A stretch of 64,000 nucleotides of DNA, taken from the NCBI GenBank assembly GCA_015207195.1, contig JADEXJ010000008.1, forward strand, positions 1-64,000. Reading direction: 5' to 3'. A program made the translations under genes and the position numbers. The DNA is from Pleurocapsales cyanobacterium LEGE 10410. Lineage in GTDB: Bacteria > Cyanobacteriota > Cyanobacteriia > Cyanobacteriales > Xenococcaceae. The notes under the pieces were generated by a model. That model had not been told where the DNA came from, did not search any database, and saw only the letters and a program-made list of their open reading frames with translations. Below are positions 7,317 to 8,323 of this stretch, piece after piece. Each line of letters starts with the position of its first letter. Position 1 is the stretch's first letter.

Positions 7317-7390
7317 GGCTCGGTGGCTCAGTTGGTTAGAGCGGGGGACTCATAAGCCCTAGGTCGTCGGTTCAAATCCGACCCGAGCCA
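7317..7390 (+). tRNA. tRNA-Met (CAU anticodon)
   Basis: A 74-base cloverleaf can be folded. The acceptor stem GGCTCGG pairs with CCGAGCC followed by discriminator A. The D arm GCTC...GAGC encloses AGTTGGTTA, the anticodon loop is CTCATAA, and the T arm GTCGG/CCGAC encloses TTCAAAT. CCA is not encoded. The anticodon stem contains an A-G mismatch next to the loop. The G1-C72 pair argues against initiator tRNA. Elongator Met is the default reading; the CAU anticodon would also fit tRNA-Ile2 if lysidine-modified. Confidence 0.9.
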
Positions 7391-7689
7391 TTTTTAGGGA
7401 AAGCTTAATTATTTCTGCAATAGGTTCACCGTTAGATTAGATTTAAGGCGATCGCCAGTCTTGTTGAGTTTTGTCCCTGCTGAGTAGCCCAAGTAGAATT
7501 AGATTGAGCTTCCACTGCTGCTAATTGCTGAATTAATTGATTTTGTAGCTTCGTTTGATGAAAATCTGCTGCATCAAAAGTAGTTTCCAAAGCGTTGTAC
7601 CACAGACTACTGGAGCTATAAACATCTAAAAGTCTGCTAATAGTGGAAGAAGCAACTGCAAAAGTAAGTGGTTGAAGTTGAGTAAAACC

Positions 7690-8128
7690 AGTTCGATGAA
7701 GTGGCTTTCTGGCTTTAAATTTAGAGCGAGGCTGCTTGCTCCGTCCTATACGCTGAGGAGACCTCAGACGGAGCTAATGCCCCATCGTCTCGCTCTGCGA
7801 GACTGGCAAAGCAGAGCTTTGCGTGGCGGTGCGCTTCTTGACGACTCTGGGATTAGTTCGACCTTGACGGGTCGGGATAATTTGTTCGGCAATTTCTGAG
7901 ATTAACCAAGAAAAGAAGTAAGGTAGAGAAGAAGGTAAAGCTTGTTGAAACTGAGAAATAGCTCGGCGCAGAATGCGTAAAGTACCCGTAAAACTGAATT
8001 GCAAAGGAGATGGCGAGGTTTTACTTAAAGCGCGAAAAATCAAAGAACGTATTGCGAGCGTGAGCAAGCAACCACCCGTAAATTTCTTGAACGACTAATT
8101 TGGGCTTTTTGGAGCAATAAGAGTTAAA
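7690..8128 (-). pseudogene. remnant of an IS4-family transposase C-terminus
   Basis: Only the C-terminal part of an IS4-like transposase survives. Reading leftward, one frame gives KPKLVVQEIYGWLLAH, a frameshift near 8055 follows, and the next frame gives LAIRSLIFRA, FSFTGTLRILRRAI and RQGRTNPRVVKK. The expected tail SKFKARKPLHR reappears only after an insertion (7726-7833) that carries a stop. The catalytic DDE core is absent, so this cannot encode an active enzyme. The frame to the left (7440-7690) stays open after KPLHR but matches nothing I know and may be fused flanking sequence. Confidence 0.8.
7726..7833. repeat. palindromic interspersed element inside the IS4 remnant
   Basis: About 108 bases separate the codons for VVKK and SKF of the transposase. 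The block has three neighbouring perfect short hairpins, each with a three-base loop: CTGAGG-AGA-CCTCAG (7753-7767, nested in CTCCGTC/GACGGAG), GTCTCGC-TCT-GCGAGAC (7787-7803) and GCAAAGC-AGA-GCTTTGC (7806-7822). The size is a multiple of three but it contains a stop. It looks like a small non-autonomous repeat that landed in an already decaying insertion sequence. Confidence 0.75.
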
Positions 8129-8323
8129 GGTAACAATTTCATCGGCTTTTTATGACAAATACTCTCATTAACTCATATTTTTGTCTTAACCGAACAGTAT
8201 TGGCCCGAATCTCTAAAGTCGTTCTAATTAATTTCCGTACCCTCTCAATTATTGGTTCGCGGGACAAATGACAAATAACGCTCTTCCCTAGTTAACTTTA
8301 ATTGCGCCGTCCCACCTAAACAA

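Follow-up and report, generated by a model that had tools for sequence, protein, structure and literature searches.

A compound hairpin in an IS4-family remnant and its dispersed, putatively mobile family in Pleurocapsa-like cyanobacteria

The palindromic insert that interrupts a dead IS4-family transposase of Pleurocapsales cyanobacterium LEGE 10410 in its tail can be assigned by sequence, as a compound form, to a family of covarying hairpins that is dispersed in Pleurocapsa-like cyanobacteria. We consider it likely that this is a non-autonomous mobile family which would insert into T tracts and persist in frame mainly within mobile elements, the copy in the window (the whole stretch of DNA analysed, 64,000 nucleotides) being a compound form. 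Copies were found inside mobile-element genes, in one housekeeping enzyme gene, and between genes.

A sequence-only reading of the window had described a palindromic repeat of about 108 bases, made of three hairpins, that separates VVKK from SKF in the tail of a dead IS4 transposase. Direct reading and comparison with relatives confirm the insertion, the parted tail (the flanks read ...NPRVVKK and PRSKFKARKP...) and the three hairpins, with a three-base loop at every apex. The length has to be corrected, since the anchors lie 143 bases apart in the filled and 41 in the empty IS4 copies, giving a net insert of 102 nt (7734..7835, minus strand, that of the transposase) with junctions at 7734/7735 and 7835/7836. 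The borders are indeed fixed to within a few bases, the remaining ambiguity being about one base because of the flanking T; placement between two codons does not stand as stated, as insertion within a codon also fits. The insert is a multiple of three (34 codons) but brings an in-frame TAG, and the window copy is therefore not itself a case of read-through.

The left part of hairpin 1 (7738..7774; GCTCCGTC/GACGGAGC with an inner CTGAGG-AGA-CCTCAG) corresponds to the family's left end, and the conserved right end, GCGGTGCGCTT, lies at 7826..7836. Between them stand two extra modules, hairpin 2 (7787..7803; GTCTCGC-TCT-GCGAGAC), which is absent from the 48–49 nt form of the family, and hairpin 3 (7806..7822; GCAAAGC-AGA-GCTTTGC). 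The same architecture, i.e. left half and right end of the family with two additional hairpins between, is seen in L028 and L029, where a hairpin related to hairpin 2 is present and both arms of hairpin 3 are changed. As single-stranded DNA, a 131-nt stretch at this place folded better than all of 200 shuffles (z = −3.22). A covariance model of the family applied directly to the window matched the insert at 7735-7836 (33.2 bits, E 1.9e-6); the genome-wide model search of G000 had listed C251 and C245 only and missed the window copy. An Rfam scan returned nothing over the insert at E ≤ 1, and the sole match to pass its cut-off was the neighbouring tRNA. This tRNA gene, with anticodon CAT, is located at 7317-7390 of the window, near the IS4 remnant.

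The IS4-family remnant that holds the insert extends over 7642..8202 on the minus strand and is missing its left end. It retains the right terminal repeat TTAACCGAACAGTATTG (8186-8202), an internal deletion junction at 8103-8115 in the stretch GGCTTTTTGGAGC, a transposase frame remnant of 97 aa (7774..8067, minus strand) that ends at the TAG within the insert (...VVKKRTATQSSALPVSQSETMGH*), and, past the insert, the C-terminal tail of the transposase (PRSKFKARKPLHRTGFTQLQPLTF...; 7642..7733, minus strand). For comparison, the homologous frame in L026 is 441 aa long, reads uninterrupted NPRVVKKPRSKFQARKP across the insertion site, and exceeds the cut-offs for Nterm_IS4 (PF13006), DDE_Tnp_1 (PF01609) and NCBIfam transpos_IS4_1 (NF033592). 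The terminal inverted repeats of the element match one another in L025 (CAATACTGTTCGGTTAA / TTAACCGAACAGTATTG) and nearly so in L026, and the window keeps the right one only. A second full-site IS4 copy in the genome (G000:C37, L009) carries the insert with one mismatch to that of the window. Compared with the relatives, the two copies have a +1 frameshift in common, and each is further damaged and has lost a different end; about 1 kb of the C37 copy and the left terminal repeat are missing from the window copy. With the frameshift, the deletion and the lost repeat, the transposase is dead, as had been claimed. In the C37 copy, the missing ~1 kb is bounded by two near-identical 13-base stretches, GGCTTTTTGGAGC and GGATTTTTGGAGC. 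Additionally, a 10-base sequence, GCCCGAATCT, is common to the flanks of the two copies, standing behind the right terminal repeat in the window (8203-8212) and ahead of the left one in C37 (L009 2235-2244). The pair resembles a single target duplication split in two, which would be the outcome of a recombination between two IS4 copies that swapped their flanks.

The comparison with other IS4 copies that had been proposed for defining the empty site gave a clear outcome: the site is empty in relatives, and the only other full-site copy found in the genome is filled. In seven homologues (L025, L026, L027, L030, L031, L041 and L130) the anchors are 41 bases apart, and the site reads GAGCGAGGTTTCTTAAT in G023 (L025), GAACGAGGTTTCTTGAC in G019 (L026) and GAGCGAGGTTTCTTAAC in G012 (L027). 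L045 is also empty, as the eighth such copy, and bears a different deletion adjoining the site. Identical sequence in intact IS4 copies, which would have made the repeat a part of the IS, was not encountered, as the filled C37 copy is dead and the copies of relatives are without the insert; the repeat is therefore not part of the IS, a reading rejected on the empty homologous sites. Together with related copies at many other places, these sites support the claim that the repeat is mobile.

Empty homologous sites were found for 19 of the first 71 copies among the loci then compared. At the hand-counted sites, the gain is the element from C to TT. No target duplication of more than 1–2 bases was seen at the empty sites, the net gain being the element length only. 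The possible target duplication at the IS4 site that the earlier reading had raised is likewise not a long one; the hexamers TGCTTG/TTCTTG give a merely apparent repeat because the element's own ends meet an oligo-T tract. Target duplication as the main reading was rejected, as CT(T/G)CTT on the left and TTTTT on the right recur at unrelated sites and the empty sites explain these bases. The targets are mostly T-rich (TTTCTT, CTTTTC, CTTTTT, TTTTTT, GTTTGC), with a few matched sites less so (ATATTT, GTTGCT, GTCGCT), some of these matches being loose. The orientation of the element is fixed relative to the T tract.

In its basic form, the family reads K-CTTGCTCC...GGTGCGCT and consists of one long covarying hairpin of 48–49 nt with a three-base loop; the common layout is KCTTGCTCCGTC-bulge-stem-loop-stem-GCGGTGCGCT, at 48 or 49 nt. 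In total 71 copies were read first and 150 after more had been fetched, a subset of all model matches; 145 were left after a quality filter that removed five poor pattern matches (L199 at 124, L155, L201, L050 at 45 and L183). Across the 71 copies the ends are kept (KCTTGC and GCGCTT) and the flanks are not, and, from the K (G or T) found at the left border, this base would seem to be the first of the element. The palindromic structure is conserved through compensatory changes. In a set of 35 distinct forms, drawn from 52 copies of 48–49 nt, the covariation score was 0.238 as compared with 0.076 in shuffles and 0.011–0.109 for slid structures, and 46 doubly changed cells were counted versus 10.2 in shuffles. 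Further pair types did not exceed the shuffles in these 35 forms (13 versus 13.6; 415 of 500 shuffles reach 13), and one proposed pair, 13-36, was unpaired in 25 of them. Of 121 copies, 52 have the loop AAA and 27 the reverse complement of it, TTT, as if the tip of the hairpin had been inverted.

The covariance model found matches in 21 of 27 genomes of the taxonomic family at E ≤ 0.01. Under stricter filters (E ≤ 1e-4), 21 of 243 genomes sampled from the order had matches, and 14 of these 21 belong to the same taxonomic family. An exact pattern scan of genome contigs gave one matching record, Pleurocapsa sp. MO_192.B19.

According to Pfam and NCBIfam, the hosts that are read through a copy include TnpB/OrfB_IS605, IS701, IS630 and other DDE transposases, group II intron reverse transcriptases (L235, L216), a CyRepA1 plasmid replication protein (L153) and a nicotinate phosphoribosyltransferase (L199); in additional hosts, the pieces on either side of a copy were identified as DDE transposases. 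Pfam gave no family for 4 of 30 read-through genes (L188, L189, L194, L047), nor for L222, L092 and L029 (3 of 10). For the family at large, in-frame insertion in otherwise conserved proteins is borne out by the phosphoribosyltransferase, by TnpB and by the frame statistics given below. TnpB L169 reads FKKKK-KRTAHGEVSSPCGRSK-QP, with an insert of 16 aa, at the point where its relatives without insert read FKKK-KQP (L290, 94% identity) or FKKK-KKP (L291 and L292, 89 and 88%); L293 and L295 were left out of this comparison. The 34-aa insert of the nicotinate phosphoribosyltransferase, which lies in a larger palindrome enclosing the 48-nt core, is missing from all six aligned orthologues, these being 6 of 10 long orthologue matches. 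In G049, copies at the same site of TnpB occur on four contigs (L206, L208, L209, L213), which suggests that host elements carry the hairpin along. The two reverse transcriptases hold the in-frame hairpin at one common place, PKPG^TRPLGIPT. In CyRepA1 L153, two further stretches (approximately residues 188-236 and 427-459) are missing from several of the family homologues listed; these fold less clearly as palindromes.

Frame was assessed by removing the element, joining the flanks by script and seeking a long frame across the junction, the net gain being taken as core + 1. Insertions within joined frames of at least 100 codons are enriched in multiples of three (3n:3n+1:3n+2 = 48:14:1, n = 63) relative to those in frames below 100 codons (20:34:5, n = 59; Fisher p 3.8e-6, calculated without 23 copies between the context classes, 15:6:2, and on copies that, being related by descent, are not independent). 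Counted by site, 26 of 36 are mostly 3n, or 25 of 35 when the second copy of the window's own site is not counted twice. With the smaller set of 71 copies, the ratio was 14:7:0 in long frames and 21:24:5 for the rest; in a first, cruder scan of these, natural read-through was found in just 17, and 54 were without it. Among 42 in-frame copies on the usual strand, each at most 66 nt long, 33 are free of stops in the frame used, where 26.0 were expected, and none of 20000 label shuffles attained 33; the other 9 have a stop in that frame. By eye, gene copies in frame 0 often have CTAAC or CCACA and not the stop-making CTTAC, and those in frame 1 often have CCGAGG in place of CTGAGG.

These features can be combined in a model of T-tract insertion and in-frame persistence. 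The basic form inserts mostly into oligo-T tracts, in one orientation and without a long target duplication, as the empty sites show, and in many genes the coding strand has this tract as a run of A, often forming lysine codons. Given such A tracts, and since the 48-nt and several longer forms are multiples of three that are capable of being free of stops, copies in genes could be read through with 16 or more extra residues, so that they would persist in reading frames, mostly those of mobile elements. These hosts would then carry the hairpin copies along. In-frame copies are probably translated, and the hairpin itself is presumably mobilised in trans; the window copy is a 34-codon compound form with an in-frame stop that sits in an already dead IS4 copy. 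A bolder version, to which we assign an even chance, is that of an undescribed family of ~48-nt palindromes that would tolerate being translated in any of the three frames and would spread largely in frame inside mobile genes, such as those for transposases, the RNA-guided nuclease TnpB, group II intron reverse transcriptases and plasmid replication proteins, carried by these between genomes. The in-frame excess may, however, reflect survival only, with random insertion, decay of what falls out of frame, and no adaptation to translation. In its favour, out-of-frame copies are present in degraded transposases, while the variants match the frames they occupy, both by eye and by permutation, although survival could yield that too; we regard survival alone as a serious contender at a little under an even chance.

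With respect to the agent that moves the hairpin, single-strand (Y1-type) processing is our leading guess and a reverse-transcribed RNA intermediate the next. An RNA intermediate with reverse transcription into A/T tracts has reportedly been suggested by Elhai et al. in 2008 for the SDR elements of cyanobacteria. For the present family, spread by this route would account for the fixed orientation to the T tract, the lack of a long target duplication and the strong covariation, but insertion of single-stranded DNA fits the same traits and no reverse transcriptase is tied to the family; we consider it possible, though on the unlikely side. Somewhat more doubtful is a classical REP, which a RAYT (TnpA-REP) transposase would both move and flank. 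The hairpin has conserved unpaired ends, and Y1_Tnp genes occur in 27 of 27 genomes of the taxonomic family. Likewise, the GTAG and CGTC families of REP/REPIN are short hairpins with conserved ends, some of them cyanobacterial, according to the accessible part of the source (PMC3733652). Here, however, 30 Y1_Tnp loci, of many listed, lacked a clear adjoining copy (the sole match had 13.4 bits, E 0.48), neither GTAG nor CGTC is an unpaired end tag in the 71 copies, CGTC being found inside the stem only, and many copies are within genes rather than extragenic. An ancient repeat that belongs to this IS4 lineage as a regular component and was lost by relatives is highly improbable: both copies in this genome are filled and the distant IS4-like L047, L048/L128, L100 and L125 have related inserts at the same codon, but the inserts at that codon vary in their inner hairpins and net lengths (102 nt in the window and C37, 99 in L047, 66 in L048 and L128 and 114 in L100, all 3n, and 50 in L125), the empty copies in three genomes are otherwise 80–92% identical on both sides of a clean junction, and the same hairpin is also found in unrelated genes and intergenic regions.

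Closest by organism are the SDR elements of Nostoc and relatives, which Elhai et al. in 2008 are said to have described as small structured mobile repeats with compensatory changes and nested insertions. Their families are reportedly 21–27 nt in size, as opposed to 48–49 nt here, and they are not known to have the in-frame habit. In its behaviour the family resembles, as compared by description, the palindromic elements of Rickettsia. Those of Rickettsia and Wolbachia are likewise palindromic, dispersed, and both intergenic and in frame in proteins including conserved enzymes, as far as the accessible parts of the sources go (PMC2229807, PMC10969869, PMC2996958), whereas the basic unit here is 48–49 nt and not 105–146, the family is cyanobacterial, and its hosts are mostly mobile elements. 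One of these sources, in its accessible part, describes in-frame palindromes for Rickettsia, Wolbachia and an archaeon, and the palindromic amphipathic repeat coding elements (PARCELs) also in two Prochlorococcus isolates (PMC2996958). PARCELs are described there as tandem arrays that form repeat domains, in contrast to the single insertions at unrelated sites seen here. MITEs such as Nezha in cyanobacteria share the non-autonomous, dispersed character and the possibility of in-frame gene fusion (accessible part of PMC10969869), but no link to IS terminal repeats and no evident target duplication was found for this family. A literature search that lay mostly outside subscription journals revealed no single in-frame palindromes for cyanobacteria, and tandem ones in Prochlorococcus (PMC2996958, as far as accessible).

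If a cyanobacterial family combines empty sites and frame-matched variants with insertions in the genes for TnpB, reverse transcriptases and a housekeeping enzyme, this would show that the in-frame habit arises elsewhere. It would also offer a system for testing insertion, the tolerance of proteins and hitchhiking on transposons and, for annotation, would explain why certain transposases, TnpBs and further proteins of cyanobacteria have insertions of 16–34 residues.

Several departures from the basic form were noted. A further hairpin at the apex (CTTGCCCTCGAATGGGG) in L048, L128, L190 and L191 gives a 66-nt form that is present at several sites, and longer nested repeats are carried by L073, L086 and L100. 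In L050, L054, L077, L078, L112, L119 and L121, the hairpin is nested in another dispersed repeat that starts with CCCTTCGGGTTCA or a close variant; this repeat is found empty of the hairpin in L065. A subfamily consisting of L218-L222 (G049) and of L194 and L195 (G023) is marked by a paired change in the outer stem, with TTGGTGCGTCC...GGGCGCTCCGC replacing TTGCTCCGTCC...GGGCGGTGCGC.
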